From NCBI GenBank assembly GCA_031289955.1, contig JAITOL010000057.1, positions 1-35,525 of the forward strand: a DNA stretch of 35,525 bases. The letters run 5' to 3'. The position numbers and the translations under genes are program-made. Shown piece after piece: positions 2,094-28,113 of the stretch (its first letter is position 1; the number at the start of each line of letters is the position of its first letter). Below the pieces are notes generated by a model. It was given only the letters and a program-made list of their open reading frames with translations. It did no database searches and was not told the origin of the DNA. Source of the stretch: Synergistaceae bacterium (GTDB lineage: Bacteria; Synergistota; Synergistia; Synergistales; Synergistaceae).

Positions 2094-2123
2094 TATACAA
2101 TAGGGCGATATTTGCGGTATAAT
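2094..2123 (+). promoter_or_regulatory. Probable promoter of the cobalamin riboswitch transcript
   Basis: A perfect TATAAT (2118-2123) lies 18 bases after TATACA (2094-2099), a 4/6 match to the -35 box. Transcription would begin near 2130, just before the 5' strand of riboswitch helix P1 at 2135. Confidence 0.6.
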
Positions 2124-2134
2124 GCGTTATATTC

Positions 2135-2303
2135 ATACCGGCGCCGAGCATTGGGAATCTGAAATAATCGGAGCGGCCCCGCCACTGTACCCCCGGACGA
2201 AACCGCATTACGCCACTTGGGATTTGATGAAAATCCCAGGGAAGGCGCGGCGATAGGATGATGGGGAGCCAGGAGACCGGCACGACGCCACGTATAGCGG
2301 TAT
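2135..2303 (+). ncRNA. Cobalamin (B12) riboswitch aptamer
   Basis: Several conserved parts of the cobalamin aptamer appear in order: the GGGAATCTG segment (2151-2163), GCGGCCCCGCCACTGTA (about 2173-2189), the hairpin GGGATTT...AAATCCC (about 2219-2238), and the B12 box GGGGAGCCAGGAGACCGGC (about 2263-2281). The closing helix P1 can be drawn as ATACCG (2135-2140) with CGGTAT (2298-2303). It binds adenosylcobalamin or a related corrinoid. A terminator 60 bases downstream, followed at once by the cbiC ribosome site, indicates transcriptional control: bound ligand should end transcription before cbiC and cbiK. Confidence 0.95.
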
Positions 2304-2419: not shown

Positions 2420-3046
2420 GTGAGCGAAGTTGGTGGATATTATGAGCGCGGACCTTCGAATATAGAGGAGCGCAGCTTCGACATAATCAGGGAGACGCTT
2501 GGGTGCTACGCGGTGGACGAGTCGCTGATCGACATAGCGATTCGGGTCGTGCACGCCGGGGCGGATTTTTCGCTCGCCAATCTATTGGAGGCGAGAAACG
2601 ACGCGGTTGCGTCGGCACGCGGCGCGCTGTCCCGAGGGGGCGTAATATTCTGCGACGTCGAGATGCTCAGGTCGGGCATCTCGCGCAGGGAGTGTGAGCG
2701 CTTGAACTTGAAACCGGTTTCCTACATCCACGACGACGATGTGCGCGACGCGGCACAGCGGGGAGGCATGACGAGAGCCATGGCTTCCGTCGACAAGGCG
2801 ATAGACGAAGGGGTGCGCATATTCGCGTTCGGCAACGCCCCGACGGCTCTTTTCCGTCTTCTCGAGCGCGTCCGCGACGGAGCTCGCGTGGATTTCGTAG
2901 TGGGCATGCCGGTCGGGTTCGTCGGTGCGGCGGAAAGCAAGGCGCTCCTCGCCGAAAGCGGCATACCGTCGATACTGACGCGGGGGCCGCGCGGTGGTTC
3001 GGGACTGGCTGCCGCCTGCGTGAACGCTCTTCTGCGGATGGTGTGA
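2420..3046 (+). CDS. cbiC: Cobalt-precorrin-8 methylmutase CbiC
   Basis: A 208-residue CbiC/CobH protein, which moves the C11 methyl group to C12 to give cobyrinic acid, the last ring step before amidation. The family's catalytic histidine is visible as H45 in IRVVHAGADF. The FCDVEML segment and the FGNAPTALFRLLE motif are also typical, as is the GMPVGFVGAAESK stretch. The gene uses GTG at 2420, supported by AAGGAGG at 2404-2410; ATG at 2413 is in another frame. It is the first gene after the B12 riboswitch and terminator and shares that transcript with cbiK, so it should be switched off when cobalamin is plentiful. Confidence 0.95.
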   Translation: MSEVGGYYERGPSNIEERSFDIIRETLGCYAVDESLIDIAIRVVHAGADFSLANLLEARNDAVASARGALSRGGVIFCDVEMLRSGISRRECERLNLKPVSYIHDDDVRDAAQRGGMTRAMASVDKAIDEGVRIFAFGNAPTALFRLLERVRDGARVDFVVGMPVGFVGAAESKALLAESGIPSILTRGPRGGSGLAAACVNALLRMV

Positions 3047-3089: not shown

Positions 3090-4001
3090 TTGAAGCTGAA
3101 AAAGTATACGCGCGCGCTGATTTTGGCGTGGGTGGCGGTATTGATGGCGTCGTTCGCGTGTGAGGCCTTGCCGACACGGGAACCGGTTACGAACGCCAAA
3201 GAGGCGATACTGATCGTGGCGTTCGGCACGTCCGTGCCGGAGGGGGAAGAGGCCATATCGGCCGTGACGGAGGCGGTAAAGGCCGCCAATCCGGGCGTGG
3301 AGGTGCGCGCATCCTATACATCGCGCATCATCATGCGCAAGCTGGCGCGGGAACAGAACAAAATCATCGACGAGCCTGCCGTCGCGTTATCGCGTCTCGC
3401 GTTCGAGGGTTACACCGACGTCGCCGTGCTTTCCACCCATATGATACCGGGAGCGGAGTACGACGATCTGAAAGCCGTCGTGGACGGATTTAGAATGATA
3501 GGCGAAAATGCCCCGAAGGCCGGTTTCAGGAGCATCGCGCTGTCGGATCCCCTGATGGCGGCGCCCGGCGATTTCGAGCGCATGGCGGACGCCATAACGG
3601 CGACATACGAAAAAGAGGGCAAGGGAGAAGCGGTCGTCCTCGTTGGACACGGTACGCATCACTTCGCCGATTCGGCGTACAGCGCCCTTCAGATGGCGTT
3701 GTGGCGCAAAAACCCCAATTTCTTCATAGGCACCATCGAGGGCATCCCGGCGTATGACGACGTATACCCCCGCCTAAAGGCGAGCGGCGCGCGCCGCGTG
3801 ACGCTCGCTCCCCTGATGCTCGTGGCCGGAGACCACGCCCACAACGATATCGCGGGGAGCGATGAGGATTCGTGGAAATCGATGCTCGAATCCAAGGGGT
3901 TGAAAGTGACTCCGATTCTTTCCGGTCTCGGCCAGAATAAATATGTGCAAAACTTGATCCTCGACAAACTGAGGGAGGCGCGCAGCTCCTTAACGCGCTA
4001 A
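3090..4001 (+). CDS. cbiK: Sirohydrochlorin cobaltochelatase CbiK, probably exported
   Basis: A 303-residue class II chelatase of the CbiK family, which inserts Co2+ into sirohydrochlorin. Two histidines and a glutamate fit the metal site: H187 in VGHGTHH, E217 in GTIEGIP and H249 in GDHAHND. Their spacing (30 and 32 residues) equals that of His145, Glu175 and His207 in Salmonella CbiK. Unlike the Salmonella enzyme it starts with a signal peptide: a basic N-terminus (MKLKKYTR), a hydrophobic core and a small-residue region near residues 22-27. Periplasmic CbiK forms are known from Desulfovibrio. The start is TTG at 3090 with GAAGGAGGAG just upstream. It follows cbiC in the riboswitch-controlled unit and is followed by a terminator. 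A periplasmic chelatase in a cytosolic pathway is unexpected; cobalt or tetrapyrrole handling outside the cytosol is possible. Confidence 0.9.
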   Translation: MKLKKYTRALILAWVAVLMASFACEALPTREPVTNAKEAILIVAFGTSVPEGEEAISAVTEAVKAANPGVEVRASYTSRIIMRKLAREQNKIIDEPAVALSRLAFEGYTDVAVLSTHMIPGAEYDDLKAVVDGFRMIGENAPKAGFRSIALSDPLMAAPGDFERMADAITATYEKEGKGEAVVLVGHGTHHFADSAYSALQMALWRKNPNFFIGTIEGIPAYDDVYPRLKASGARRVTLAPLMLVAGDHAHNDIAGSDEDSWKSMLESKGLKVTPILSGLGQNKYVQNLILDKLREARSSLTR

Positions 4002-4102: not shown

Positions 4103-4152
4103 GTGGGCTTTTTTCCACAAAGTTGTCCACCAAATGGGCATAACTTTGGAGG
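4103..4152 (+). promoter_or_regulatory. Structured leader with alternative hairpins next to a ribosome site
   Basis: CAAAGTT (4118-4124) plus GTCCA (4125-4129) can pair with TGGGC (4135-4139) plus AACTTTG (4142-4148), a 12-pair hairpin with a two-base bulge. Its last G is the first base of the ribosome site GGAGG (4148-4152). A second copy of TGGGC, within GTGGGC (4103-4108), can instead pair with GTCCAC (4125-4130), and GTGG (4103-4106) can also pair with CCAC (4115-4118). The folds exclude one another. I folded this by hand; whether it senses anything is unknown. Confidence 0.35.
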
Positions 4153-4159
4153 TTTACCG

Positions 4160-5119
4160 TTGGATTTATTAATGATATTAAAATATTCTATCAAGTGGCG
4201 AGGAACTCTTTTAGGGTTTATACTGATTACAATTGTTTCGATGTTGATGTTGTGTTCTCCTTCAGTTTGTTTTGCGAGGGAATATCCGGTGTATTTAAGG
4301 GACGACGTCGGCGCGGACATTGTCGTGGGGTTTCCCGCGAGGAGAATCATTTCTTTGTACGCGGGTCACACGGAAAATCTCGCGGCGATGGGCGCCGGAG
4401 ATTTTGTGGTGGCGGTTGGGCGTTCGGACGATGGCGCGGGCAATTCCGTCGCGGTTCTGGGAGCTCGCCCCGGCATAGAGCAGATCGTGGCCTTGTCGCC
4501 GGATCTGATCCTGACCAGGCCTATGCTCGTTCGCGCTTCCGAGTCGCTTTACTCCGCCCTCAGGTCGTTCGGAGTCGTCGTTGTGGCGCTCGACCCGCCT
4601 TCGTGGGATGAGTTTCCGGAGTATATAGACCGCATGGCGGCCCTGACCGGGTTGGACAGCGAGCCCGGGCAGGAGGCCCTCCGCCTGATTCGTTCGTCGG
4701 AGCGCTCCGAGCTCGAAGAAGCTCCGGGCGCGCTTTTGGTGACGAACGGACGAACGATGTCCACATGCACGCCTGATTCGTGGGCGGCGCATGTCCTTGC
4801 GGCCTCAGGTTTCCGCAATGTGGCGCGAAGCGCCCCTCCGGCCGCTTCGGGGAGCGTTATCGCGGCATTCGGCGCGGAGCGGACGATCGCCGCGAACGAT
4901 GATATAGACGTTATACTGTTGCAGCAGGGCGCGATGAACACGGTTCGTGCCGTCGATTTTATGAATGACACGAGATTTGCCGGCCTCGAGGCCGTACGAA
5001 ACGGCATGGTTTTCGACGTCCCCGAGGCGGATGTTTCACGTCCGTCCTTGCTGCGTATGGGAAATGAAGTCCTGCGTTCCATCAGGGAACGCGTTACGGC
5101 CGGGGGTGTTGAGCGATGA
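4160..5119 (+). CDS. BtuF/FecB-like periplasmic metal-chelate-binding protein
   Basis: A 319-residue protein with a long signal peptide (basic start, then hydrophobic GFILITIVSMLMLCS, cleavage likely after VCFA), followed by a helical-backbone binding-protein fold. Typical features are RIISLYAGHTENLAAMGAG and VVAVGRSDD near the N-terminus, GIEQIVALSPDLILT, and the C-terminal half with GLEAVRNGMVFDVPE. This family (BtuF, FepB and relatives) delivers corrinoids, hemes or siderophores to ABC transporters; the place at the head of the cbi operon suggests a corrinoid or cobalt-related ligand. No permease or ATPase gene is adjacent. TTG at 4160 is chosen because GGAGG lies at 4148-4152; ATG at 4172 is too far from it. 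It overlaps cbiD by four bases. Confidence 0.8.
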   Translation: MDLLMILKYSIKWRGTLLGFILITIVSMLMLCSPSVCFAREYPVYLRDDVGADIVVGFPARRIISLYAGHTENLAAMGAGDFVVAVGRSDDGAGNSVAVLGARPGIEQIVALSPDLILTRPMLVRASESLYSALRSFGVVVVALDPPSWDEFPEYIDRMAALTGLDSEPGQEALRLIRSSERSELEEAPGALLVTNGRTMSTCTPDSWAAHVLAASGFRNVARSAPPAASGSVIAAFGAERTIAANDDIDVILLQQGAMNTVRAVDFMNDTRFAGLEAVRNGMVFDVPEADVSRPSLLRMGNEVLRSIRERVTAGGVER

Positions 5120-6237
5120 GCCTTACGAAAGGCGTCGGAATGATGAGCGGTTTTACGACCGGAAGCGCGGCCGCCGCCGCGGCCGTCTCTGCGGCGCGTT
5201 TTCTCTTTGACAGAAACTGCGGCGCCGTCACGCTCAATTTGCCCGGCGGCAGGGATATAGTCATCCCCATAACGGGGTGCCGCAGAACCGAGGATGGGGC
5301 TGAGGCGTGGGTCACGAAGGATGCCGGGGACGATCCGGACATAACGCATGGCGCGGTGATCGTGGCCGACGTGAAGCCGTCCGATGAAAGCGGCATCACA
5401 ATACTCGGGGGGCTTGGCGTCGGCGTCGTCACAAAGCCCGGCCTGCTGGTTCCTCCGGGCAAAGCCGCCATCAACCCGGGACCGATGGCCCTCATCCGCA
5501 AATCGCTCGGGCTCGAGCTGCCTCAGGGGATGGGCGCCAGGGTGACGATATCCATTCCTGGCGGCGAGGAGCTGGCGAAACAGACGTACAACCCGCGGCT
5601 CGGCATCATAGGCGGGCTGTCGATACTGGGCACCACCGGCATCGTCTCCCCCATGAGCTCGGACGCCATAATCGGAACGATAAAGACGGAGCTCTCCGTC
5701 CTCAAGGCGTCCGGCGCCAATATAGTCTGCCTCGTGCCCGGCAACTACGGGCGCAGGATGGCCATACTCATCGGAATACCCGAGAAAATGATAGTGAACA
5801 TCAGCAACTTCGTCGGGGAGTCGCTGGCAATGGTCGGCAACTCCGGTTTCGAGAAGCTGATAATGATAGGTCAGGTGGGTAAATTCGCCAAACTGTCGGC
5901 CGGATCGCTCGACACGCACAGCATGAGGAGCGACGGCAGGCTGGAGGCGATAGCCGCCTATTCGGCCCTCCACGGCGCGACGAGCGACGACGTAAGGGAG
6001 ATACTCGACAGCTCGATGGCCGACGAGATGGCGACGAGAATCGCGCGCACCGAGTGGGGAAACGCCGCTCTCAGGGAGCTCGTGGACAGAATAGTCAAGA
6101 CTGCCCTCACAGCCGCGACCGGCATATCGGACGGCGCGTGCCTGACGTTCTCGCTCCCCGACAGGGAGCTTGCGCGCACCGACAACCTCGATGAGCTGAT
6201 CGCGGAAATCAAAAAAAACGCCGAGTCGACGCAATGA
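5116..6237 (+). CDS. cbiD: Cobalt-precorrin-5B C1-methyltransferase CbiD
   Basis: A 373-residue CbiD protein, the SAM-dependent enzyme that methylates C1 of cobalt-precorrin-5B in the anaerobic corrin pathway. Signature parts are the N-terminal SGFTTGSAAAAAA stretch, ITIPGG-like SIPGGEELAKQTYNPRLGI, GLSILGTTGIVSPMS and the central IGQVGKFAKLSAGSLDTHS. The length is normal for the family. It starts in the ATGA that ends the BtuF-like gene and ends in the ATGA that starts cbiE, which suggests translational coupling on both sides. The enzyme acts in the cytosol between CbiG and CbiJ. Confidence 0.96.
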   Translation: MSLTKGVGMMSGFTTGSAAAAAAVSAARFLFDRNCGAVTLNLPGGRDIVIPITGCRRTEDGAEAWVTKDAGDDPDITHGAVIVADVKPSDESGITILGGLGVGVVTKPGLLVPPGKAAINPGPMALIRKSLGLELPQGMGARVTISIPGGEELAKQTYNPRLGIIGGLSILGTTGIVSPMSSDAIIGTIKTELSVLKASGANIVCLVPGNYGRRMAILIGIPEKMIVNISNFVGESLAMVGNSGFEKLIMIGQVGKFAKLSAGSLDTHSMRSDGRLEAIAAYSALHGATSDDVREILDSSMADEMATRIARTEWGNAALRELVDRIVKTALTAATGISDGACLTFSLPDRELARTDNLDELIAEIKKNAESTQ

Positions 6238-6875
6238 TAACGATAGTGGGCGCCGGACCGGGAACTAGAGAATATATGACCCCGGAGGCAGCGTCAGCTA
6301 TAGCCTCCTCCCGTGTGATAATAGGCGGAGCCCGCGTCCTGGACGCTGTGGATTTGCCCCGCGAAGCCCGCAGGGTTGAGCTTCCGGCCTCCGGAATGGC
6401 CGGCGCCGTTGCCGAAGCGCTCCAGAGGGAGTCCGGCGGCGATGTCACGCTGCTCGTATCGGGCGACCCCGGTTTTTACAGCCTTGCCAAAAGGGTGACG
6501 TCGACATATGGCAGGGAGCGCGTCAGGATAGTGCCGGGCATATCGTCGATACAGCTCATGTCCGCCAGAATATGCCGTTCGTGGGCAGGGGCGTCGAGCG
6601 TGACGATGCACGGCAGAAGCGATCTGCCCGTGGGCGAGCTCGCGTCCCGTCTGCGCGCCTCATCCGCGCTTGTGGTGCTTTTCGGCGTTCCGGAGGACGT
6701 CGAGCCTCAGATGAAACGGCTCGCGGCGGACGAGGAACTTGGAAACGCGTGGGCCGCCCTCGGCTGGGATCTTGGACTGCCGGACGAGCGCATATTTGAA
6801 GCAAACAGCCTGAGGGAGCTCGCCCCCGATCCATACAGGGGAAGACTCTCTCTGCTCTGGCTGGAGAGGATATAA
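6234..6875 (+). CDS. cbiE: Cobalt-precorrin-7 C5-methyltransferase CbiE
   Basis: A 213-residue tetrapyrrole methylase that methylates C5 (with CbiT acting on C15). The glycine-rich N-terminus ITIVGAGPGTREYMTPEA and the second motif LLVSGDPGFYSLAKRV are those of CbiE/CobL-N, as is VRIVPGISSIQLMSARI. In many bacteria CbiE and CbiT are fused (CobL); here they are separate but adjacent. The start overlaps the cbiD stop by four bases. A 30-base gap with its own ribosome site separates it from cbiT. Confidence 0.93.
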   Translation: MITIVGAGPGTREYMTPEAASAIASSRVIIGGARVLDAVDLPREARRVELPASGMAGAVAEALQRESGGDVTLLVSGDPGFYSLAKRVTSTYGRERVRIVPGISSIQLMSARICRSWAGASSVTMHGRSDLPVGELASRLRASSALVVLFGVPEDVEPQMKRLAADEELGNAWAALGWDLGLPDERIFEANSLRELAPDPYRGRLSLLWLERI

Positions 6876-6905
6876 CGGCAGATAGTGACGGAGGGGGTAC
6901 GGAGC

Positions 6906-7505
6906 ATGGCTGAGAGCGATATATCCGTAAACGGAAGGGGCGTTATCGCGGACGAATGGTTTGAGCGGGCCGAACGAGTCCCCATGACGAAATGCGTCAC
7001 GAGGGCGGTGCTGATGTCCGTTCTGTCGCCGCTAGAGGGAACGCGGGCGCTGGAGATCGGAAGCGGAAGCGGGGCCATGACGGTCGAGCTCGCTCGCGCT
7101 GTCGGGAGCGAAGGCCGCGTCACGAGCATCGAAATTTCCTCCTCCGCCGCGGACTTGACGAGGCGCAATCTCGAACGCGCCGGATATATGGACAGGGTCG
7201 AGCTGATAGAGGGAAAAGCGCCAAAATCCATACCGATAGGGGTGTTCGGGACGGTGTTCATCGGCGGACACGGAGAGGAACTCGAAGCGATAATGGGAAC
7301 GAGCGTCGACAGGATGGAGGCTGGGAGCAGGCTTGTGCTCACGTCCATCACGCCGCGCTCGACGGCGAGAGCTCTGGCGTATCTGGAGGTTCTGGGGCTT
7401 GGCGTCGGTTTCTGGCGGATGCACTCGTCCGTAGGGGCCCGGTTCGGTTCGGACTGGCTGCCGCTCGGGAACAACCCGGTCGACATTATATGGGGGGATA
7501 GATAG
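6906..7505 (+). CDS. cbiT: Cobalt-precorrin-6B C15-methyltransferase (decarboxylating) CbiT
   Basis: A 199-residue class I SAM methyltransferase. The N-terminal GVIADEWFERAERVPMTKCV corresponds to the start of CbiT, where Pro-Met-Thr-Lys is conserved. The SAM-binding loop reads ALEIGSGSGAMTVELAR, followed by an acidic strand end VTSIEIS. The enzyme methylates C15 and removes the C12 acetate carboxyl group. ATG at 6906 is preferred because GGAGGGGG lies at 6890-6896; an upstream in-frame GTG at 6885 has no such site. One base after its stop, cbiF begins. Confidence 0.92.
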   Translation: MAESDISVNGRGVIADEWFERAERVPMTKCVTRAVLMSVLSPLEGTRALEIGSGSGAMTVELARAVGSEGRVTSIEISSSAADLTRRNLERAGYMDRVELIEGKAPKSIPIGVFGTVFIGGHGEELEAIMGTSVDRMEAGSRLVLTSITPRSTARALAYLEVLGLGVGFWRMHSSVGARFGSDWLPLGNNPVDIIWGDR

Positions 7506-7506
7506 T

Positions 7507-8268
7507 ATGGACGCCCGTCCAAGAGTTTATATAGTAGGAGCAGGCCCAGGCGATCCTGAGCTCATGACGGTGAAGGGCTCGCGCCTGTTGGCCGGCGCCG
7601 ACGTGGTCGTCTACGCCGGCAGCCTCGTCAACGAAAGCGTGCTCTCCATCTGCCGCGACGACTGCGAAAAATTGAATTCCATAGATATGACGCTCGAGGA
7701 GCAGACGGACGTCATGACAAAGGCGGCTTTGGCCGGAAAATCGGTGGTGAGGCTGCATACCGGAGACCCCAGCCTTTACGGGGCCATATCGGAACAGATC
7801 GCGGCTCTGTCCTCGGGCGGAGTCGGATTCGAGATCGTGCCGGGCGTATCGAGCCTTCAGGCGGCCGCGTCGAGGCTCGGTATAGAGTACACGGTGCCGG
7901 ACGGAACCCAGACGCTCATCTGCACTCGCGTCTCCGGCCGGACTCCGGTTCCGGAGCTCGAGGATATCGAGCGGCTGGCCTCTCATGGGGCATCGCTCGT
8001 GGTCTTCCTGTCCGCCGGAATGGCGGAGGCCGTGGCCGAAAAATGCATCGCGGCCGGGATGCGGCGCGACACTCCGGCTGCCTGGATATACAGGGCGACG
8101 TGGAGCGACGAGCGCGCGCGCGTCACGACGCTCGAGGATTTGCCCCGCTCCATGAGGGAGTCGGGAATACACAATCACGCCCTCATAGTTGTGGGAGACT
8201 GCCTCGCTCGGGATCCGTCGTCGCGCAGCTTTCTCTACAGCTCCGAATTCCAGGGAGCGAGAGCATGA
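7507..8268 (+). CDS. cbiF: Cobalt-precorrin-4 C11-methyltransferase CbiF
   Basis: A 253-residue tetrapyrrole methylase of the CbiF/CobM group. The N-terminal P-loop VYIVGAGPGDPELMTVKG, the YAGSLVN segment, VVRLHTGDPSLYGAI and FEIVPGVSSLQAAAS are the recognised family signatures, and the PDGTQTLICTRVSGRTP stretch is specific for CbiF/CobM. It methylates C11 of cobalt-precorrin-4. The ribosome site GGGGGG (about 7492-7497) lies in the end of cbiT. The stop overlaps the start of the cbiG-cbiH-cbiJ fusion by four bases. Confidence 0.96.
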   Translation: MDARPRVYIVGAGPGDPELMTVKGSRLLAGADVVVYAGSLVNESVLSICRDDCEKLNSIDMTLEEQTDVMTKAALAGKSVVRLHTGDPSLYGAISEQIAALSSGGVGFEIVPGVSSLQAAASRLGIEYTVPDGTQTLICTRVSGRTPVPELEDIERLASHGASLVVFLSAGMAEAVAEKCIAAGMRRDTPAAWIYRATWSDERARVTTLEDLPRSMRESGIHNHALIVVGDCLARDPSSRSFLYSSEFQGARA

Positions 8269-10826
8269 TTCGCTTTCATACCGACAAAGAGATATACGCG
8301 CTCCACTATTCCGGCGGAAGCGAAACCGCGTCCGAGCTCCTCGAATCGCTGGGCGCGATTGACGTTCCTATCCCCGAGGGGGGCACCGGGAAAGCGTTCG
8401 CTTCGAGGTGGAGCGACGCCGGAGCGTTCATATTCATAGGGGCGCTCGCGATCGCTGTGCGCTCCATCGCCTCTCTTCTGGAGGACAAGTCGTCGGATCC
8501 GGCCGTCGTGGTCGTCAGCGAGGACGGCGGCGTCTGTCTGCCCGTAGTCTCGGGACATATAGGGCTCGCCACGGATCTCGCGAGGGAATGTGCCCAGATA
8601 CTGGCTCACAGGGGGGCGCTTTACGTGCCGACCACGTCGAGCGACAGGGCCGGCTTCATCGCTCCGGATCTCTGGGCCTCGCGAAGGGGTTACGACATCC
8701 TTCTGAAGGCGCGCCTCACGTCCGTCATCGCTAAGTTCAAGGAGACGGGCGGAATAACCGCGTGGGTGGATCCAATACTGCGGGATTTCGGCATAGATAT
8801 GCCCCTGCCCTACGGTTACGAACCGGCTGAGTCCCAGGGAGACGCGGATATAATCATCTCGCCGCGGGCAATACAGAAGCTGGTCGGGGCGAAACCCCAG
8901 ATAGTGCCCCGCGTAATTACTGCCGGCATCGGCTGTCGCAAGGGGACGAACGAGGAAGCGCTGGAGCGAGTCCTGAAGAGCGCGCTGTCAAAAAATCACT
9001 TCGGCCCGTTTCTCATCGAAGCGGCGTCGGAGATACGCACCGTGGAGGCCAAAAGGGACGAGGAGGGGCTCATCCGCATGGCCGAGGGCTGCGGCCTGCC
9101 AATTGTCATCGTTCCCGACGACGAGATACTGGCCATGCCGGGCAAGTTTTCCCCGTCCGCCGCGAAGCGCCATATAGGCCTTCCGGGCGCCGCCGAACCG
9201 GCTGCCGCGAGCGCCGGAGCGCTTCTTGACTCAAGGGTCGCGGAGTCCGGGGTCACCGTCGCGTTATCCATGTCCAAGCCGCGTGAGAGCGGGGAACTCG
9301 CCATAATCGGCATCGGCCCGGGGGACGCCAGATTTGTGACGATGGACGCCAGATCGGCAATAGACGCGAGCGAGGTTCTGATAGGCTACAACCTCTACGT
9401 CGACCTGCTGCCCGACGCGTGGAAGAACGGCAAGATCGTCGAGCGCTACGGCATGGGCGAGGAGGAGGACAGGGTTTCCCGCGCGTTTTCCTATGTCAAT
9501 TCCGGCTACAGGGTCGCCATAGTCTCCGGGGGCGACGCCTCGCTGTTCGGCATAGCGTCTTTGTGCCTCTCGACCCTCCCCGAGGGGGTTTTGTGGAGCA
9601 GTGTGCGGATAATACCGGGCATTACCGCGGCGCAGGCTGCCGGAGCGTCGATCGGCGCGCCATATTCCAACGGCCTCGTCCTTGTCTCGCTGTCGGATTA
9701 CCTTCAGCCGTGGCCCGACGTCGCGCGTTCTCTCGAGGGCGGCATGGAGAGCGGGCTCACCGTCGCCATATACAACCCGGTGCTGAGGGATCTCGACTTG
9801 AAACTGGCGGAGGTCCGGACGATATTCGCGGGCCGCGCGGCAATTCTCATCAGAGACGCCGGAAGGGCCGGCGAATCGGTTCGGGAGATTTCGATGGAGG
9901 ATCTCGTGCCGGATGCGATCGATATGAGGACGATGATTCTCATACCGTCGGACAAGGCTCGTGAGAAATACTCACATGGCAAAAAATTCTGGGTCGAGGC
10001 GAGGGGTTACAAGTCCGAAACTGGCGGAACGGACGCGCCGGCCATGCTCGGGCGGTTTCTCGTTTTGGGGGGCGCCACCGAGGGAAGAGAGGCCGCCAGG
10101 GTCATCCTCGAGCTCGGTTTTTCCGCGACAGTGTCGGTGACCAGGGAAGCTGGGGGCGCCACCGTGCCGGATGGGGCTGGTATGCTCGTGGGCGCCAGAA
10201 GCGCGGACGATTGGGTTCACATTCTGGGCTCGGAGGCGGCTTCGGAGCTGATTGGGGTAATCGACGCGACCCATCCGTTCGCGGACACGGCGTCGCGCGA
10301 GATAGCCAAAGCCTGTTCCCAGGCGGGAATGCCCCTCTGCCGTTTTATCAGGGCCAGCGAGATACCGGATGGGGCCGAGATCGTCTCTTCCCTGGAGGAT
10401 GCCGTCACCCGCGCGATAGAACTGACTGACGAGGGCGACGTCATATTCCTCGCCATCGGAACGAACGATCTGAGATCCGTCGTTCCAATGGCAAGGGAAT
10501 CCGGAAGGGGAATACTGGTTCGCATGCTGCCGACCGCGGAGAGCATCAAAAAAGCTGAGCGGGCCGGGGTCGAGCCGAGGGAGATAATAGCGTCGTGGGG
10601 AGCGGGAGGCCCACAATATAACGAGGCTTTATGCAGGGATAGAAACGTTCGCGCCATCGTCAGCAGGGAATCCGGAGCGCCTGGCGGAGTCGGGGGAAAG
10701 CGCGACGCCGCCGCGAGCCTGGAGATACCGCTGGTGCTCGTATCCAGACCGGAGGAGCCGTCCAATGTGAAGCGAGTGACCTCATCGGACGAGCTCATCG
10801 ACTGGTGCCAAAGACTCCGCAAGTGA
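8265..10826 (+). CDS. cbiGHJ: Triple fusion CbiG-CbiH-CbiJ (precorrin-5A hydrolase, C17-methyltransferase, precorrin-6A reductase)
   Basis: An 853-residue protein made of three corrin enzymes in one uninterrupted frame. Residues 1 to about 340 are CbiG: VVVSEDGGVCLPVVSGHIG, then SSDRAGFIAPDLWA, and the C-terminal domain starting ITAGIGCRKGTNEEAL near 221; it opens the lactone ring and releases acetaldehyde. Residues about 345-590 are CbiH/CobJ, the C17-methyltransferase that contracts the ring, starting LAIIGIGPGDARFVTMDA with VAIVSGGDASLFG and VRIIPGITAAQAA. Residues about 597-853 are CbiJ/CobK, the precorrin-6A reductase, starting RFLVLGGATEGREAARV with VIDATHPFADTAS and SRESG near the end. 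The start ATG 8265 lies in the ATGA shared with cbiF; coding-like extension upstream is only overlap with cbiF. CbiH and CbiG act in succession, so fusion could channel the unstable intermediates. I saw no frameshift or missing motif. Confidence 0.95.
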   Translation: MIRFHTDKEIYALHYSGGSETASELLESLGAIDVPIPEGGTGKAFASRWSDAGAFIFIGALAIAVRSIASLLEDKSSDPAVVVVSEDGGVCLPVVSGHIGLATDLARECAQILAHRGALYVPTTSSDRAGFIAPDLWASRRGYDILLKARLTSVIAKFKETGGITAWVDPILRDFGIDMPLPYGYEPAESQGDADIIISPRAIQKLVGAKPQIVPRVITAGIGCRKGTNEEALERVLKSALSKNHFGPFLIEAASEIRTVEAKRDEEGLIRMAEGCGLPIVIVPDDEILAMPGKFSPSAAKRHIGLPGAAEPAAASAGALLDSRVAESGVTVALSMSKPRESGELAIIGIGPGDARFVTMDARSAIDASEVLIGYNLYVDLLPDAWKNGKIVERYGMGEEEDRVSRAFSYVNSGYRVAIVSGGDASLFGIASLCLSTLPEGVLWSSVRIIPGITAAQAAGASIGAPYSNGLVLVSLSDYLQPWPDVARSLEGGMESGLTVAIYNPVLRDLDLKLAEVRTIFAGRAAILIRDAGRAGESVREISMEDLVPDAIDMRTMILIPSDKAREKYSHGKKFWVEARGYKSETGGTDAPAMLGRFLVLGGATEGREAARVILELGFSATVSVTREAGGATVPDGAGMLVGARSADDWVHILGSEAASELIGVIDATHPFADTASREIAKACSQAGMPLCRFIRASEIPDGAEIVSSLEDAVTRAIELTDEGDVIFLAIGTNDLRSVVPMARESGRGILVRMLPTAESIKKAERAGVEPREIIASWGAGGPQYNEALCRDRNVRAIVSRESGAPGGVGGKRDAAASLEIPLVLVSRPEEPSNVKRVTSSDELIDWCQRLRK

Positions 10827-10859: not shown

Positions 10860-11555
10860 TTGATTTTATACGGTGTCGGAGTGGGTCCTGGCGATCCGGA
10901 GCTTGTTACCATGGGAGCGTTCAAAATGCTCGAGGAGGCGGACGTTTTATTCATACCTGTGTCCGCGGAGGATAAGAAGAGCGTCGCGGGGGATATTTAT
11001 TCGCGTCTCGGGGGAAAGAGGGAGGCTCATCCCCTCTGGTTTCCGATGACAGGCGATTCGTCGAAGCGCGACGCGGAGATATTGCGGCAGCTCAACGAAT
11101 ACAAAGAGCTGTGGAGGAATGCCCGCAGCATCGCCCTGCCTGTGATAGGGGACTCGACGCTTTACGCGACGGCGGCTTACCTTTATTCGGTGTGGCGCGG
11201 AATATGCCCGGATCTCGAACTGAGGCTGCTGCCCGGAATATCGGCCCACTCGCTTGCCGCGAGCGTGGCGGGGGAATTTCTCGCCCTCGGGGGAGAGCGG
11301 CTGGCGGTGCTGCCGGGGTCCGTCGAGCTGCCGAAGCTGGAGGAAGCCATGAAGGCGTCCGAATGTGTGGCGCTCTACAAGCCGTCGGCGGTCGGTTCGT
11401 CCCTGCCGGATCTCGTGAAACGCACAGGCCCGTGGAAGAGTGTCGTCCGCGTGCATCGCGCCGGGCTGCCCGAACAGAGGATCGTTCGCGAAGACGAGGC
11501 CTCGAGCCCGACGGACGACTATCTCTCCGTTCTTCTGCTCTGGAGGGACAGATAA
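10860..11555 (+). CDS. cbiL: Cobalt-precorrin-2 C20-methyltransferase CbiL
   Basis: A 231-residue tetrapyrrole methylase of the CbiL/CobI group, which methylates C20 of cobalt-precorrin-2 after cobalt insertion. It starts ILYGVGVGPGDPELVTMGAF, and the segment ADVLFIPVSAEDKKSVAG (between the first two motifs) is typical of CbiL. ALPVIGDSTLYATAAYL and LLPGISAHSLAAS follow. The start codon is TTG at 10860, with GAGGGGTGGAG at 10842-10852. It lies 33 bases after the triple fusion and 10 bases before the membrane protein gene. Confidence 0.93.
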   Translation: MILYGVGVGPGDPELVTMGAFKMLEEADVLFIPVSAEDKKSVAGDIYSRLGGKREAHPLWFPMTGDSSKRDAEILRQLNEYKELWRNARSIALPVIGDSTLYATAAYLYSVWRGICPDLELRLLPGISAHSLAASVAGEFLALGGERLAVLPGSVELPKLEEAMKASECVALYKPSAVGSSLPDLVKRTGPWKSVVRVHRAGLPEQRIVREDEASSPTDDYLSVLLLWRDR

Positions 11556-11565: not shown

Positions 11566-12525
11566 ATGAACGTGATCTCCATGTCGTCCGGCGATTTCTG
11601 GATGGCGCTTCTTGAGGCCGAAGCCACGCTCACGCTCAACATCACGATTGGGTTGGCTGTGGGCGAGCTGATACTGGCCCTCGGCGTTGTGGAACGGTTT
11701 TTTGCCCCTCTCGTCCCGTTGTTGGGACGGAGCGGAATAAATGAAAAGATAGCCGCAGCCATGCTGCTCGCCGCCGGATCGTCGCGTTCAGCGGCGGCTC
11801 TGATATCAGGGGCATACGCGAATCACGAGGTGACTCGCGAGGAGGCCACGCTCGGCACGTTGTCGCTCTCGTTCCCGGGCTACCTGCGCAGATGGGTCGG
11901 AACCGCGACAATGGCCTCGGCCATAGCCGGGACGGCCGGATTTATATTCTCCCTCGTGTTGCTGCTGCGCAGCGCCTGCCGCTTCGCCTGGGTAGTCGCC
12001 ATATTGGTTCGCCGCGGCAGGGGACGAACGGTGTCGGGACATATGCCCCCGCCTCCCTCCTCGCCGGAATGGCGGCAGAGGGCGCGGAAGCTCGGCAAAA
12101 TGCTGGCGCGTTCGCTGCCGTGGGCATGGGCTTTTTTTGCGCTCACCTACGCGCTTGTGCCGCTCGTGGACGCTTTTTTCACGGAGCACATCGCGAGGTT
12201 GGGATTTTATTCGTTCATACCAGCCGAGGGATGGGCGATAGCAGTGAGCTCGCTGGCCCATGTGACGGCGGCTCTATCGTCCGCCTCGGGGGCTATGGCG
12301 AGCGGCGCCCTCGGCGTCGGGCAGGCGGTATTGGCTCTTCTCGTCGGCAACATGGTCGGTTCGGTAACGAGAACAATGAGGCAAAATGTGGGCTATTGGG
12401 TCGGCATATTCCCGAAAGAGCTCATACCTGGTCTTCTGAGATGGCATTTCGCGACAACCATGATTCTGGAAGTCGTCTCGATTTTCATAGCGTGGTGCGC
12501 GGCGGGGGTGAGCGTCTTTGGGTAG
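11566..12525 (+). CDS. Unidentified multi-span membrane protein within the corrin/heme operon (Gate/nucleoside-recognition-like)
   Basis: A 319-residue very hydrophobic protein with about seven to eight candidate membrane segments. I see two similar halves: one around AAGSSRSAAALISGAYANHE (about residues 69-88), the other around AALSSASGAMASGALGVGQA (about 235-254). Each is followed by a helix and a basic turn. This arrangement recalls the Gate (nucleoside-recognition) fold found in some transporters and in FeoB, but the match is from memory and weak. A proline-rich, basic loop (HMPPPPSSPEWRQRARK) sits between the halves. It lies between cbiL and hemA and overlaps hemA by eight bases, so it is part of the operon. 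Cobalt or tetrapyrrole transport would fit the context but is only inference. The start ATG 11566 has no clear ribosome site; GGAGGG is 18 bases upstream, so initiation may depend on coupling to cbiL. Confidence 0.7.
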   Translation: MNVISMSSGDFWMALLEAEATLTLNITIGLAVGELILALGVVERFFAPLVPLLGRSGINEKIAAAMLLAAGSSRSAAALISGAYANHEVTREEATLGTLSLSFPGYLRRWVGTATMASAIAGTAGFIFSLVLLLRSACRFAWVVAILVRRGRGRTVSGHMPPPPSSPEWRQRARKLGKMLARSLPWAWAFFALTYALVPLVDAFFTEHIARLGFYSFIPAEGWAIAVSSLAHVTAALSSASGAMASGALGVGQAVLALLVGNMVGSVTRTMRQNVGYWVGIFPKELIPGLLRWHFATTMILEVVSIFIAWCAAGVSVFG

Positions 12526-13669
12526 GATATGCGTCATAACGATGGATCACAATTCGTCGACGGTTCAGGAGAGGACGAGCTTTTCATCGCTGGGAGACCG
12601 TCTGCCGGAGCTGAAGTCGAGCGGGCTCGTCGGAGAATACCTCAAGCTCGAGACGTGCAACAGGTTCGAACTGTATCTCGTGCTGTCGAGCCCCGGGGAC
12701 GAGCGCGGCGCGGTGGCCTCTTTCGACGTTCCCGGCGCGAGGATGCTGTACGATTACGAGGCCGTGCGCCATCTGTTGCGGGTGTTGCTCGGGCTCGAGA
12801 GCATGGCCAGGGGCGAGTCGCACATAGTTTCCCAGGTGAAGGAGGCGTACAGGGCGTCGGACGGCTGCGGCAAAGTGCTGCACAAGCTCTTTCAGCGCGC
12901 CTCCGGAATGTCGGCGTCGCTTCGTTCGCGGATTCATCCCGGAAGGGAGCCTTCCGTACCTTATATAGCGGCTAATTATTTCGTGAAAAATTTCAGATCC
13001 GGCGCCCGTCCGTCGGCCATGGTCGCTGGTCTGGGCGCCATGGGAACCGAGACGGCCCATATCCTGCTGTTGATGGGGTGCGACGTGCGCGTCTCCAACA
13101 GAAGCCCCCGCGAAATGGATAAAAAAATATCTGCGGCGGCGCTCGTTCCGTGGAGCGGATGGCTTGCCGCCGCGAGGGAGTGCGACGCGCTGTTCCTGTG
13201 CACATCCTCGTCCTCCCCGATACTGACCGGAGAGGATGAGGACTCGATGCCAGATGTGGCGGTGTACGACCTCGGGTCGCCTCATCAGAGCGCGGGCAGG
13301 AACGTCGGGATTCGCGTCACGCTCGACGAGATGAACGACATGGCCTCCGCTATGAACGCCGAATACGCTCACATGCTCCTGGAGCTCGAGGACGAGGCCG
13401 ACAAGACATCGAGCGCGCTTCTCGCCGAAATATCCATATTGACGGACGACACGTGGAAACAGCTCGCCATGACGAGGGTCCATTCCCTCATAAAGGACAG
13501 GGCCGTCGCGTACGCCGCTAAAACGGGGGCCGGGCCGGATGATCTCGAGGCGTTCGCCTCTTCGGTCGTCAGCGCGTTTCTGCATCCGCTCACGTCGGCT
13601 CACACGGCGCACAGTTCGCGGGCATGGAGGATACTGTCCGGAGAGAACGAGGAGTACGCGGAAGATTGA
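12518..13669 (+). CDS. hemA: Glutamyl-tRNA reductase HemA
   Basis: A 383-residue glutamyl-tRNA reductase, the first committed enzyme of the C5 pathway to 5-aminolevulinate. The catalytic cysteine is C47 in LETCNRFELY; an upstream histidine (H11) fits the family's N-terminal pattern. ESMARGESHIVSQVKEAY matches the conserved glutamate-binding region, and VAGLGAMGTETAHILL is the NADPH fold. It is shorter than the roughly 420 residues common in enterobacteria, mostly in the N-terminal and linker parts. TTG at 12518 is supported by GGGGGTG at 12504-12509 and overlaps the membrane protein gene by eight bases. HemL, the partner enzyme, is three genes downstream. Confidence 0.93.
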   Translation: MGRICVITMDHNSSTVQERTSFSSLGDRLPELKSSGLVGEYLKLETCNRFELYLVLSSPGDERGAVASFDVPGARMLYDYEAVRHLLRVLLGLESMARGESHIVSQVKEAYRASDGCGKVLHKLFQRASGMSASLRSRIHPGREPSVPYIAANYFVKNFRSGARPSAMVAGLGAMGTETAHILLLMGCDVRVSNRSPREMDKKISAAALVPWSGWLAAARECDALFLCTSSSSPILTGEDEDSMPDVAVYDLGSPHQSAGRNVGIRVTLDEMNDMASAMNAEYAHMLLELEDEADKTSSALLAEISILTDDTWKQLAMTRVHSLIKDRAVAYAAKTGAGPDDLEAFASSVVSAFLHPLTSAHTAHSSRAWRILSGENEEYAED

Positions 13670-15069
13670 TGGACGTAATGAGCAAAGAGGGGCCGTACAG
13701 GCTCATCGTCTCTTTGAATCTGGACAGACACGCCGTGCTGGTGATCGGAGGGGGCGCGGTCGCGGAGCGCAAGGTGCGAACGCTGCTGCGCTCGGGGGCG
13801 GGCGTAAGGCTCGTCTCTCCGACGTCTACTGAGGCATTGGCCGAAATGGCCGCCCGGGGGGAGATAATATGGGATATGCGCGATGCGGAACAGATGGACT
13901 TTAAACGCGAAAATTTCGCCATAATAGCGACCGCGCCGGATGAAGCCGGCGGGATAGCCGCGATGGCGCGAGAGGAACGCTGTGTCGTCGATGTGTGCTC
14001 CGACGGAGGCGAGGGGGATTTCGCCCTGTGCGCTCAATTCGGAGCGGACGGTAGTTTCGTCGGGGTTTCGAGCGGCGGAGGCGATCCGGCGGGGGCCGCC
14101 GCGATGAAGAGAAAAATAATGGGTTTCCTCGGGGCGAGCCATGTGGTCGCTCTCACGAGGAACAGCCCTCTGGCCCTCGCTCAGACCGGGCTGTGGGCAG
14201 GCGAGCTCGAACGCGTCGGGGTCGCGGTCGCGTCGAGAAGCGTGTCGAGCCACGGAGACAGGGACAGAACGAGCGAACTGTCGTCGTTCGGCTTCGGCGC
14301 GTTCGTGAAGGCTCTCGAGGACGAACTGCTGGCATGTCGAGGCGACTTCGCGGTCCACAGCATGAAGGACATGCCGACGTCGCTTCCGGATGGCGTGGTT
14401 ATCGCCGGGACGCTCGAGCGCGGCCCGGTTCACGACGTTTTGATCACGCGCGACGGATGTGATTTGAGCTCGATGCCCCGGGGGGCAAAAGTGGGAACGT
14501 CGAGCGTCCGCCGCAGGGCTCAGGTGCGCGCCGCCCGTCCCGACCTCGAATGTGTTACGTGCAGGGGCAACGTCGGGACGAGGCTCGAAAAGTTGAAAAA
14601 AGGCGAGATGGACGCCCTGATCCTCGCCGAGGCCGGGCTTGAGCGGCTCGGTTTCGGAGGAGTCCCCCGGGCGCCGCTTCCGTTCATAACGACGGCCGGC
14701 CAGGGGGCCGTGGCCGTCGAGACGAGAACCGGTTCCCCGTTGGAGGGGATACTGAGATCCCTGAATCATCTTCCGACGTGGTACGAGGTCACGGCCGAGA
14801 GGGCTTTTCTCGCCCGCATCGGCTTCGGCTGCGTCTGTCCCATAGGGGTCAACGCGAAGTACGGCGATGGAGAGCTCGAACTCACCGTCGATCTGTACCC
14901 GCCGGACAAAGACCCGTCGATTTCGCCGGAGATGGAGAGCCTGCGCGGCCGCGTCGATTCCGACGAAAGCGCGCGCGCTCTGGCTGACCGGCTGTGGGAG
15001 ATGGTGCGGGACAGGCCGGCGACGAGGGCGATGACCGATATGGGAATTGCCCGGGAGCCGGGCCTGTGA
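13669..15069 (+). CDS. hemC: Fusion of precorrin-2 dehydrogenase and hydroxymethylbilane synthase (SirC-HemC)
   Basis: A 466-residue bifunctional protein. Residues 1 to about 150 form an NAD-dependent precorrin-2 dehydrogenase (CysG-N/Met8p/SirC type): LIVSLNLDRHAVLVIGGGAV, AERKVRTLLRSGAGVRLVSP, and IATAPDEAGGIAAMAREE. Residues about 156-466 form HemC: VALTRNSPLALAQTGLWAGE, DFAVHSMKDMPTSLPDG, VGTSSVRRRAQ, and the cofactor loop FGCVCPIG with C388 as the likely dipyrromethane attachment site. HemC makes hydroxymethylbilane from four porphobilinogens; the dehydrogenase makes sirohydrochlorin from precorrin-2, the substrate of CbiK. ATG 13669 shares one base with the hemA stop (TGATG); an in-frame ATG at 13624 would overlap hemA more and has no better ribosome site. 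The two activities are not consecutive, since HemD and CobA act between them. Confidence 0.92.
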   Translation: MDVMSKEGPYRLIVSLNLDRHAVLVIGGGAVAERKVRTLLRSGAGVRLVSPTSTEALAEMAARGEIIWDMRDAEQMDFKRENFAIIATAPDEAGGIAAMAREERCVVDVCSDGGEGDFALCAQFGADGSFVGVSSGGGDPAGAAAMKRKIMGFLGASHVVALTRNSPLALAQTGLWAGELERVGVAVASRSVSSHGDRDRTSELSSFGFGAFVKALEDELLACRGDFAVHSMKDMPTSLPDGVVIAGTLERGPVHDVLITRDGCDLSSMPRGAKVGTSSVRRRAQVRAARPDLECVTCRGNVGTRLEKLKKGEMDALILAEAGLERLGFGGVPRAPLPFITTAGQGAVAVETRTGSPLEGILRSLNHLPTWYEVTAERAFLARIGFGCVCPIGVNAKYGDGELELTVDLYPPDKDPSISPEMESLRGRVDSDESARALADRLWEMVRDRPATRAMTDMGIAREPGL

Positions 15070-16529
15070 GCGTCTATCTTGTCGGCGCGGGCTGCGGTTC
15101 GCCCGGACTCCTGACGCGGGACGCGCTCGAATGTGTATCCGCAGCGCGGCATATAGTATATGACAGGCTCATACACCCCGACATCCTTCAGCTGGCGCCC
15201 TCGTCGTGCGAGTTTCATCTCGTCGGCAAGAAGGAACGGAACCATACGATGGGGCAGGACGAGATAAACGATCTGTTGGTCAGTCTGGGCAGAACCGGCG
15301 AAACGGTGGTGAGGCTCAAGGGCGGCGACCCGTTCGTCTTCGGGCGGGGAGGCGAGGAGGCGGAGTATCTCGAAAAGTACGACATTCCGTGGAGGGCGAT
15401 CCCCGGCATAACATCGGCGCTCGGAGGCTCGCTGCTCGCGGGGCTGCCGACGACCCACAGGAGAAATTCGTCGTCGGTGACGATGGCTACGGCGCACAGA
15501 AGATGCGGCGTCAGGGAGAACGACGACGCCTATTGGCGCGATATCGCCTCGTCTCCCGGCACACTCGCCCTGTACATGGGGACGTCGAACTTCGCCGAAA
15601 CCGCGGATCTTCTCATGGCGAACGGCAAACCGCCCGGCGCCCTCTCCTCCGTCGTCCACTGGGGGGGCTGGGCGAGGGCGCGCAGAATGGACGGCACGCT
15701 CGAAGGGTTTGCCCTGATGGCACGGGCGCGCGAGCTGCCGTCTCCATCGATCATATATATAGGAGACGCTTCCGGCATAAAACTCAGCCCGGAGGCCGGG
15801 CCCATGCGCGGAATGCAGGTGGCGGTCTGCCGCCCGTACCCGGAGTGCTGGGAGACGGGCAGGGCTCTTGAGAGACTGTCCGCCGACTGCTACGGGCTGC
15901 CTCTTTTGTCGCTCGAACGAATTGATCCCGACGAGAGCTCGATAGACTCCATCGCGACCGCCGACTGGCTCGTGCTGACGAGCCCGAGGGGCGCGTCGCG
16001 CCTCGCCGAAGTACTGGGAGATATGCGCCGGATAAAGGGCAGAATTGTATCCATAGGGAAAGGAACGTCCGAAATGCTTCGCCGTATTGGTATAATATCC
16101 GATATGGAGTCCGACGGCAGCGGCAAGGGGCTCGCCGAAACGCTCAAAAACGTCGTCTCGCCGGGCGAAACCGTAGTTTTCGCCAGAAACGAGCGCGCGT
16201 CGGACGAGGCGGTCACGGCCTCTCGTTCCGTCGGGGCGGAGGCGCGTATAGTTTCGACGTACAGAATGGTTCCGCGCGAAGTGCCGGGGCTCGAGGTAAT
16301 GAGGGAGCAGTGGGCTTCCTGCGGTCTCGACGCCGTCGTCTTCGGAAGCTCGGAGATGGCGCGGGAATACAGCGAGCGGCTGGGACGTCCTCCGAAGGGA
16401 ACTTCCCTTGTAGCGTGGGGAGAGAAATGCGCCAATTCCGTGCGGAATATTTTTGGAATTGACGCGGTTGTCATGCGAACGCCCGATATGGATGGTCTCA
16501 TCCGGGCGCTCGCGACGCGAATGGAGTGA
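15066..16529 (+). CDS. cobA-hemD: Fusion of uroporphyrinogen-III C-methyltransferase and uroporphyrinogen-III synthase (CobA-HemD)
   Basis: A 487-residue bifunctional protein. Residues 1 to about 243 are the SAM-dependent methylase (SUMT/CobA): VYLVGAGCGSPGLLTRDALE, YDRLIHPDIL, VVRLKGGDPFVFGRGGEEAE, and IPGITSALGGSLLAGLPTTH. Residues about 247-487 are HemD, with VLTSPRGASRLAEVL and a C-terminal VVFGSSEMAREY near the strand where family members carry TS/SS. HemD closes hydroxymethylbilane to uroporphyrinogen III and CobA makes precorrin-2 from it, so here the fused steps are consecutive. This fusion is known from other anaerobes. The start GTG 15066 lies in GTGA, overlapping the previous stop, with GGGAG at 15053-15057. 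Confidence 0.93.
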   Translation: MSVYLVGAGCGSPGLLTRDALECVSAARHIVYDRLIHPDILQLAPSSCEFHLVGKKERNHTMGQDEINDLLVSLGRTGETVVRLKGGDPFVFGRGGEEAEYLEKYDIPWRAIPGITSALGGSLLAGLPTTHRRNSSSVTMATAHRRCGVRENDDAYWRDIASSPGTLALYMGTSNFAETADLLMANGKPPGALSSVVHWGGWARARRMDGTLEGFALMARARELPSPSIIYIGDASGIKLSPEAGPMRGMQVAVCRPYPECWETGRALERLSADCYGLPLLSLERIDPDESSIDSIATADWLVLTSPRGASRLAEVLGDMRRIKGRIVSIGKGTSEMLRRIGIISDMESDGSGKGLAETLKNVVSPGETVVFARNERASDEAVTASRSVGAEARIVSTYRMVPREVPGLEVMREQWASCGLDAVVFGSSEMAREYSERLGRPPKGTSLVAWGEKCANSVRNIFGIDAVVMRTPDMDGLIRALATRME

Positions 16530-16535
16530 TTGCGT

Positions 16536-17834: not shown

Positions 17835-18476
17835 ATGGTTTTCAGCCCGAGGGAAAACCCCTATGTCGAAATAGCCGTCACGCTGACGTTAGGCGCGCTT
17901 GCGTACAGGTTCGCCGGCGCGTTCCTGTCCGCTTTGGGCGCGCCCGGGGCCCTCTGGTACGCGTGCAAAAATTTGTTGTCATTCATTGCGCTGGTGATTT
18001 TAGCTGTAATATATTTCAAGTATTTCAGCCGCGTTTTCTATAAACACGGTCTCTCCCAAAGGGAAGAAGAGCCTGAAATCAAAGAAATCGCCAGGTCCAG
18101 GGAAATTGGGGAATTTAAAGAGCCCCAAATATTTAAAGAGGTAAAAGACGCCCACAAGGTAAGCATTGCGATACAAGAAGCGATAATGACCGCTGGTCTC
18201 GCGGCGACCAAAGAAAAAACTGAAATTATGGATATTATGTATGTTGAAGAAAAATTTGAAGAAAAAGAAAAAGAGCAAGAAAAAGAGCAAGAGCAAGAGC
18301 AAGAGAAAGAGGAAATAAAATATAAAGCGACGAGCGAGGAAGCGCCTAATGGCCCCATCTCTGTTTTGCGCCTCGAAAAAGCGATAGAATTTCGGAGGCC
18401 CGAAGCGAATAAAAAAGAGAAGGGCGAATTTGTCCTCCTCATGGATGATATCGTCGATATGGACGTGGGGGGGTAG
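17835..18476 (+). CDS. Small membrane protein with long E/K/Q-rich tail, unrecognised
   Basis: A 213-residue protein I do not recognise. Two hydrophobic helices lie near residues 11-35 (VEIAVTLTLGALAYRFAGAF) and 40-64 (NLLSFIALVILAVIYFKYF). A charged tail follows with many E and K residues, including a low-complexity E/K/Q stretch about residues 138-161 that would form a single charged helix or coiled coil. The C-terminal region ends in an acidic DDIVDMDVGG. From about 18040 on, the base use is clearly more AT-rich than in hemL or the next gene, which hints at fast evolution or separate origin. The gene begins six bases after hemL and ends five bases before the TPR protein gene. I infer that it could anchor the TPR protein to the membrane. 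Confidence 0.7.
   Translation: MVFSPRENPYVEIAVTLTLGALAYRFAGAFLSALGAPGALWYACKNLLSFIALVILAVIYFKYFSRVFYKHGLSQREEEPEIKEIARSREIGEFKEPQIFKEVKDAHKVSIAIQEAIMTAGLAATKEKTEIMDIMYVEEKFEEKEKEQEKEQEQEQEKEEIKYKATSEEAPNGPISVLRLEKAIEFRRPEANKKEKGEFVLLMDDIVDMDVGG
18246..18316 (+). repeat. Low-complexity purine-rich hexanucleotide repeat (GAGCAA/GAAAAA units)
   Basis: About 70 bases of almost pure purine on this strand, with repeated GAGCAA, GAAAAA and GAGAAA units, encode the E/K/Q stretch of the small membrane protein. Units are six bases long, so gain or loss would change the length of the charged helix without a frameshift. Confidence 0.85.
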
Positions 18477-24226: not shown

Positions 24227-24277
24227 CGTTCGCTGTCACACGACGCGACATCTATTCTGACTTTGGAAGTGATTGTC

Positions 24278-26875: not shown

Positions 26876-26947
26876 TTTTATATTGATTGTTTGAGAGAGA
26901 CGACAGCACGGTAAAGTTTAAGGTTGCCGAAAGGTTTTGATGCGGAT

Positions 26948-28055: not shown

Positions 28056-28113
28056 ATGACTCATATAGTTTCTTGCCCAAATTGCTGAATGAGACTGAGG
28101 TGCGCTTGCGGTC

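Follow-up and report, generated by a model that had tools for sequence, protein, structure and literature searches.

The 35,525-nt contig JAITOL010000057.1 of a Synergistaceae bacterium (GenBank assembly GCA_031289955.1) was analysed over its whole length, referred to below as the window; it is one contig of a draft genome of 2.65 Mb in 219 contigs that is 95.6% complete. Behind a cobalamin riboswitch it carries an operon-like run of genes: cbiC, cbiK, a binding protein gene, cbiD, cbiE, cbiT, cbiF, a fusion gene, cbiL, orfX, hemA, a sirC-hemC fusion, a cobA-hemD fusion and hemL (Table 1). The open reading frame (ORF) of the fusion gene joins CbiG, CbiH and CbiJ in one chain. It is preceded by a GGGAG site and stays open across all 853 residues, whereas reading the opposite strand in one frame meets several stops. 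We consider it probable that this gene of a riboswitch-headed operon encodes a trifunctional enzyme of the anaerobic (early-cobalt) corrin pathway, and that it arose by the joining of gene neighbours.

Pfam places CbiG_N, CbiG_C, TP_methylase (residues 345-547) and CbiJ (598-849) in this order, all above gathering scores; CbiG_N reaches 81.9 bits (cut-off 25) and CbiG_C 79.4 bits (cut-off 27). All four domains are matched in each of the 16 triples that were aligned, and CbiG_mid in 2 of them. The joins lie near residues 340 and 590, in agreement with the three fused enzymes and the boundaries near 343 and 595 proposed in the initial annotation of this DNA. Residues 567-596, the region of the linker between CbiH and CbiJ, are less alike than the domains in three of the four pairs compared. 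The CbiJ part passes both the Pfam CbiJ model (173 bits, cut-off 28.6) and the NCBIfam precorrin-6A reductase model TIGR00715 (140 bits, cut-off 129.85), the latter being missed by the CbiJ parts of the triples in genomes G015 and G012 (105 and 108.6 bits, respectively). The best NCBIfam match of the CbiH part is cobJ_cbiH (TIGR01466) with 177.3 bits, below the cut-off of 246.35; the best family of any other name reaches 55 bits. With the same model three other triples score 148-189 bits, and three unfused CbiH proteins pass with 274-323 bits. These scans covered the fusion and nine further ORFs of the window in both Pfam and NCBIfam, and twenty more in Pfam only. A structure prediction from two sequences gave a mean pLDDT (predicted local distance difference test score) of 38.6 and was not used.

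The triple is open in one frame in 16 of the 185 Synergistota genomes searched, all of them from a single family (f1) and distributed over five genera (g1, g13, g30, g6 and g3). Genus g1 has it in 10 of 11 genomes, and the match in the eleventh (G007) ends at a contig end. The shortest triple measures 824 amino acids; the count includes G174, where two matches fall in one ORF of 896 amino acids. In L034 (G165) there is no ATG, GTG or TTG at the head of the frame, which was entered from CTG. One relative, L032, came out of a scan of GTDB contigs; it and L132 are apparently one contig. When the three parts were compared with those of four congeners, the ratio of nonsynonymous to synonymous substitution rates (dN/dS) was 0.107-0.212 in 11 of 12 comparisons and undefined in one, values that are rough given a dS of at least 1.17, which counts against leaning on them, and that point to purifying selection on all three parts. 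In G175, a single-contig assembly, the frame of the triple is interrupted within its CbiH part (L087).

A search outside the phylum with a CbiJ probe covered six groups of 224, 77, 98, 24, 329 and 50 genomes (802 in total), two of which look like Cyanobacteriota and Fusobacteriota. CbiJ is present in 96, 10, 76, 16, 143 and 29 of these genomes, respectively (370 of 802), and the longest frames among the matches listed measure 367, 286, 567, 300, 681 and 270 amino acids; no listed frame is longer than 681, against 824 for the shortest triple, and none of the matches listed is a triple. The initial annotation had called for a comparison of domain architectures across phyla and had allowed that the arrangement might be common in many of them. 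We found it in one family only, and a wide phyletic spread was not seen among the matches listed in the six outside groups. Plasmid records lack it as well in the six examined, of 341 with a match. No description of a published CbiG-CbiH-CbiJ fusion was found in the accessible parts of the open-access literature searched (subscription journals were outside the scope).

Fusions of two corrin enzymes, by contrast, occur widely among the labelled loci, as the initial annotation had stated. CbiH-CbiJ, CbiF-CbiG, CbiJ-CbiE-CbiT and CbiJ-HemC are among those of other lineages; all eight frames longer than 460 amino acids among the matches listed are accounted for by one CbiH-CbiJ, three CbiJ-CbiE-CbiT, one CbiJ-CbiE, two CbiJ-HemC and one CbiJ with nothing recognised beside it. 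The triple is restricted in the groups searched, while the fusing of corrin enzymes is common. Three further loci (L089, L120 and L085) hold other three-part fusions, CbiJ-SirC-HemC and CbiH-CbiJ-SirC. A CbiJ-HemC fusion of 560 amino acids, present in two genomes of the Fusobacteriota-like group (L113 and L114), joins distant pathway steps.

Several known or outside cases come close to the triple in part. The cyanobacterial-type CbiG-CbiH fusion (CbiG-CobJ) pairs these enzymes in one frame of 579-643 amino acids, in the order they have in the triple; at least 19 matches, in the first of the six outside groups, cover both (117 genomes were searched and 46 gave a match), and the phylum is probably Cyanobacteriota. 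Its common origin with the Synergistota fusion has a tree support of 65/62 and is neither shown nor rejected. Deinococcus deserti has the same CbiH-CbiJ join in the same order (annotated cobJ, 555 amino acids), but its CbiG is separate, the charged residues of its CbiH are kept, and its CbiJ part has another position in the tree, at the end of a long branch. CbiJ-CbiE-CbiT of Roseburia sp. 831b (712 amino acids) is a three-enzyme corrin-ring fusion too, with other partners. Corrin-enzyme joining is extensive in Parabacteroides L051 (Bacteroidota), with CbiH-CbiC, CbiE-CbiT, CbiG-CbiF and CbiJ-CbiD; these pairs differ from those of the triple, and CbiF-CbiG and CbiD-CbiJ represent consecutive steps.

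Gene order was read from labelled loci, in which each ORF took the name of its best match among reference proteins of the window and of named plasmids. Retrieval of the loci was centred on CbiJ or the fusion, some of them being picked for long frames, and the counts therefore describe a non-random sample. Outside the phylum, 22 of 29 labelled loci hold cbiG, cbiH and cbiJ in the stretch read, and the order is cbiG, cbiH, cbiJ in 21 of these (three with hemA between cbiG and cbiH), the exception being Parabacteroides L051. The pairs cbiF-cbiG and cbiH-cbiJ adjoin unfused in most loci, cbiJ-hemC does so in L076 and cbiJ-cbiE in L050. At all six loci with a CbiG-CbiH fusion and a separate adjacent cbiJ, the start of cbiJ overlaps the stop of cbiH by 4 nt, 2 out of frame, and a start is found at that position of the cbiH stop in 13 of the 20 loci examined. 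A small change of length in this overlap could thus give the triple.

The phylum holds two operon types. In the first, CbiG and CbiH are fused and followed by an adjacent cbiJ (six loci: L091, L134, L135, L140, L141 and L142), have no cbiJ nearby (L136-L139; L088 of G164), or carry CbiJ fused as well. In the second, CbiG and CbiH are not joined to each other and CbiJ forms a fusion with SirC, with or without HemC, and in G129 also with CbiH. Of the 56 loci, 54 entered a tree of CbiG plus CbiH (two lack CbiG) and 51 a tree of CbiJ (five lack it). In the former, the 27 fused rows of the phylum make up one side of a branch (support 100/100), and the 16 triples form one set (99/97) together with G164, where CbiG-CbiH stands without CbiJ. 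In the CbiJ tree the triples and the rows with adjacent cbiJ are one side of a branch (100/100). A single origin of the CbiG-CbiH join inside the phylum is well supported. At loci L136-L139 (genomes G036, G058, G072 and G138) the fusion query gave no CbiJ match at E 1e-10, and in G036 none even at E 1e-3. The degraded-looking L088 of G164, which is included in the counts, has an operon stretch without cbiT, cbiF, cbiJ, cbiL and orfX, and its fusion has lost residues that other fused rows keep; here the pathway is perhaps decaying.

In the pathway as given in the accessible part of PMC7242693, the CbiF step separates those of CbiH and CbiG, and the CbiD step those of CbiG and CbiJ. The initial annotation was right in placing CbiJ after CbiF and CbiD, and wrong in having the CbiH product used directly by CbiG, since CbiF intervenes. 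Because of the intervening enzymes the fused parts serve alternate steps, and therefore the fusion passes no product straight from one of its own sites to the next. Its sites do not lie on consecutive steps, and channelling between consecutive steps within the fusion was rejected. CysG, the siroheme synthase, also has several tetrapyrrole steps in one chain (PMC7242693); unlike CysG, the Synergistaceae fusion joins alternate steps of a longer path.

Judged from homology, the CbiH part would methylate C17 and contract the ring of cobalt-factor III, and the product would leave the fusion for the separate CbiF. The CbiG part would then open the lactone of cobalt-precorrin-5A with release of acetaldehyde, its product would leave for the separate CbiD, and the CbiJ part would reduce cobalt-precorrin-6A. 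The gene itself probably formed by joining of neighbours in the order cbiF-cbiG-cbiH-cbiJ: cbiG with cbiH first, once inside the phylum, and cbiH then with cbiJ inside one family, probably by a small insertion or deletion in the 4-nt overlap that relatives still have. By the tree of CbiG plus CbiH, the second join happened once; by the CbiJ tree there may have been two. It seems to be the order of neighbouring genes, and not that of chemical steps, which the joining follows, and gene order explains the fusion better than pathway logic. A benefit, for example an equal dose of the three enzymes, might follow from the single chain.

Several points weigh against this reading. In 7 of the 29 outside loci cbiG, cbiH and cbiJ are not all near each other, and the Bacillus megaterium operon has the order cbiWHXJCDETLFGA in the accessible part of PMC8123684. 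In the four genomes with the cyanobacterial-type CbiG-CbiH fusion where both were listed, CbiJ is separate and far away. No unfused cbiJ-sirC neighbours were seen among the labelled loci, hemA standing between the two in L049. Adjacency of genes could itself be kept by protein contact. In the CbiJ tree the triples fall into two sets, which needs two changes; a single triple group appears in 2% of 200 bootstrap trees, while the strongly supported branches force only one change. On this tree CbiJ may have been joined once or twice. Finally, the best score of the CbiG part with an NCBIfam equivalog is 136.1 bits against a cut-off of 326. As both CbiG and CbiH miss their cut-offs and lack residues kept outside the fused clade (see below), the names overstate the certainty of two of the three activities.

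The strongest competing explanation is that the fusion was selected to build a multienzyme complex, in which CbiF and CbiD dock between the three sites and labile intermediates are handed around. The initial annotation had also suggested a complex with CbiF and CbiD. With alternate steps on one chain, two places would be free for these enzymes, although no joined pair is consecutive in the pathway (PMC7242693). According to the accessible parts of the respective papers, fused genes can indicate functional or physical association (PMC10138114), and CobK buries its product almost completely, which the authors suggest to be a form of channelling (PMC4663756). The occurrence of the triple in five genera also fits a selected complex, but other lineages fuse other partners, including CbiJ with SirC and with HemC, which serve distant steps, and CbiJ lies elsewhere in the four cyanobacterial-type genomes. 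Since the genes are adjacent and their start and stop codons overlap, the fusion is explicable without a complex. A selected complex is possible, but the order of steps gives it no support, and we regard it as rather unlikely.

A second group of observations concerns residues of CbiH and CbiG, chosen from conservation and given in window numbering. The 27 rows of the fused clade were compared with 29 CbiH and 27 CbiG rows outside it, which include three CbiH-CbiJ or CbiH-CbiJ-SirC fusions (L048, L085 and L104). Relative to CbiH outside the clade, the window has D470G, R489S, D497G, S507L and R510L. None of the 27 fused-clade rows retains D470, R489 or D497; R510 has given way to another residue in 26 of them (to K in one) and S507 in 19. 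Each of the 29 outside rows has all five residues, as do, by a reading of the alignments, the solved sequences 2zvb and 3nut; in the six cyanobacterial-type fused rows these residues are kept too, charged ones included, unlike in the Synergistota fused clade. In CbiG, the window has S at 85 and T at 103. All 27 rows outside the clade keep D85 and N103, and all 27 fused-clade rows have lost both. D85 is retained by five of the six cyanobacterial-type rows, and all six carry D or E at 103. Other fusions keep the CbiH residues, so fusion as such does not explain their loss; the fused rows form one clade, so the losses may be a single set of changes.

The identity between the fused clade and outsiders, divided by the identity among outsiders, is 0.68 for CbiH, the lowest of eight enzymes, followed by 0.70 for CbiT, 0.76 for CbiG, 0.78 for CbiJ, 0.81 for CbiL, 0.85 for CbiE, 0.88 for CbiF and 0.98 for CbiD. 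By this measure CbiH is the most changed enzyme in the fused clade, but not alone, CbiT being close. It is conceivable, though unlikely, that a rebuilt ring-contraction pair emerged on the stem of the CbiG-CbiH clade, CbiH (D470/R489/D497/R510) and CbiG (D85/N103) changing together. In that case, and with both parts active, C17 methylation with contraction and then lactone opening would use different substrate-holding groups, and two sites on one chain would perhaps deal jointly with the lactone intermediate, CbiF being placed between them.

The same replacements in both enzymes and the low ratio of CbiH would also suit an enzyme that no longer does the ring-contraction chemistry, or does it differently, in the case of CbiH and perhaps CbiG. 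We hold this to be quite unlikely. E400, R403, D424, S477, D478, Y503 and N504 of CbiH are kept in 26 or 27 of the 27 fused-clade rows, with departures only in G164, the CbiH part is under purifying selection, and CbiT has diverged almost equally. A BLAST search of the window's draft genome, 95.6% complete, with the fusion as query turned up no second CbiH-like stretch, and the remaining methylases of the operon match families of other names in Pfam and NCBIfam. For these last two reasons CbiH is kept as the likely role, and the part is likely a CbiH enzyme with changed residues.

An artefact of assembly or sequencing that made one ORF out of separate genes, an error the initial annotation had allowed for, has next to no probability: the window does come from a 219-contig draft and the frame is broken in the CbiH part of the relative G175, but the open triple is common to 16 genomes of five genera, and a join by sequencing error is excluded because two single-contig assemblies, G012 and G015, carry the same ORF.

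Table 1. Features of the corrin operon and parts of the fusion gene in the window.
Feature	Position	Strand	Evidence
cobalamin riboswitch (RF00174) ahead of operon	2105..2299	+	74.6 bits, gathering 31.5
cbiC	2420..3046	+	Pfam CbiC
cbiK, cobalt chelatase	3090..4001	+	Pfam CbiK
periplasmic binding protein, putatively BtuF-like	4103..5119	+	Pfam Peripla_BP_2
cbiD	5116..6237	+	Pfam and NCBIfam scans
cbiE	6234..6875	+	Pfam and NCBIfam scans
cbiT	6885..7505	+	NCBIfam CbiT above cut-off
cbiF	7507..8268	+	NCBIfam cobM_cbiF above cut-off
4-nt overlap of cbiF stop and fusion start (ATGA)	8265..8268	+	
cbiG-cbiH-cbiJ triple-fusion gene, 853 aa	8265..10826	+	open frame; Pfam/NCBIfam domains; 15 relatives with same triple
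CbiG part, residues 1-338 (CbiG_N 45-127, CbiG_C 218-334)	8265..9278	+	Pfam
CbiH part, residues 343-585	9291..10019	+	Pfam, NCBIfam
linker between CbiH and CbiJ, residues 586-596	10020..10052	+	falls between CbiH and CbiJ homology
CbiJ part, residues 597-853	10053..10823	+	Pfam, NCBIfam
cbiL	10860..11555	+	TIGR01467, 153.6 bits, slightly below cut-off 163.25
orfX, membrane-like protein	11566..12525	+	recurrence in operons; weak Gate (PF07670) similarity
hemA	12518..13669	+	Pfam GlutR_N
sirC-hemC fusion	13624..15069	+	Pfam NAD_binding_7 and Porphobil_deam
cobA-hemD fusion (putative CobA role)	14994..16529	+	Pfam TP_methylase and HEM4
hemL-type aminotransferase (putative role)	16530..17828	+	Pfam Aminotran_3

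Among the neighbours of the fusion, orfX turns up close to cbiL in many of the phylum's operons and matches no family above cut-off; the best Gate similarity of its relatives is 6.6e-05, below cut-off. The genes cbiE and cbiT are fused in five of nine loci of the window's own genus (L124-L131 and the window) and separate in the other four. Three ORFs of the window (17835-18476, 24263-25513 and 25526-26875) have no Pfam match at E 0.001 and sit beside a tetratricopeptide repeat (TPR) protein (18482-21217) and a sugar-nucleotide cluster (26924-35215).

The series of separate genes, CbiG-CbiH and CbiG-CbiH-CbiJ within one phylum suggests that fusion tracks the adjacency of genes rather than the order of steps, and it cautions against taking fusions as proof of channelling. 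Natural CbiH and CbiG variants without residues that are conserved elsewhere would ease the probing of anaerobic ring contraction, and the fusion may serve as a one-gene source of three enzymes for B12 pathway building in laboratory strains.

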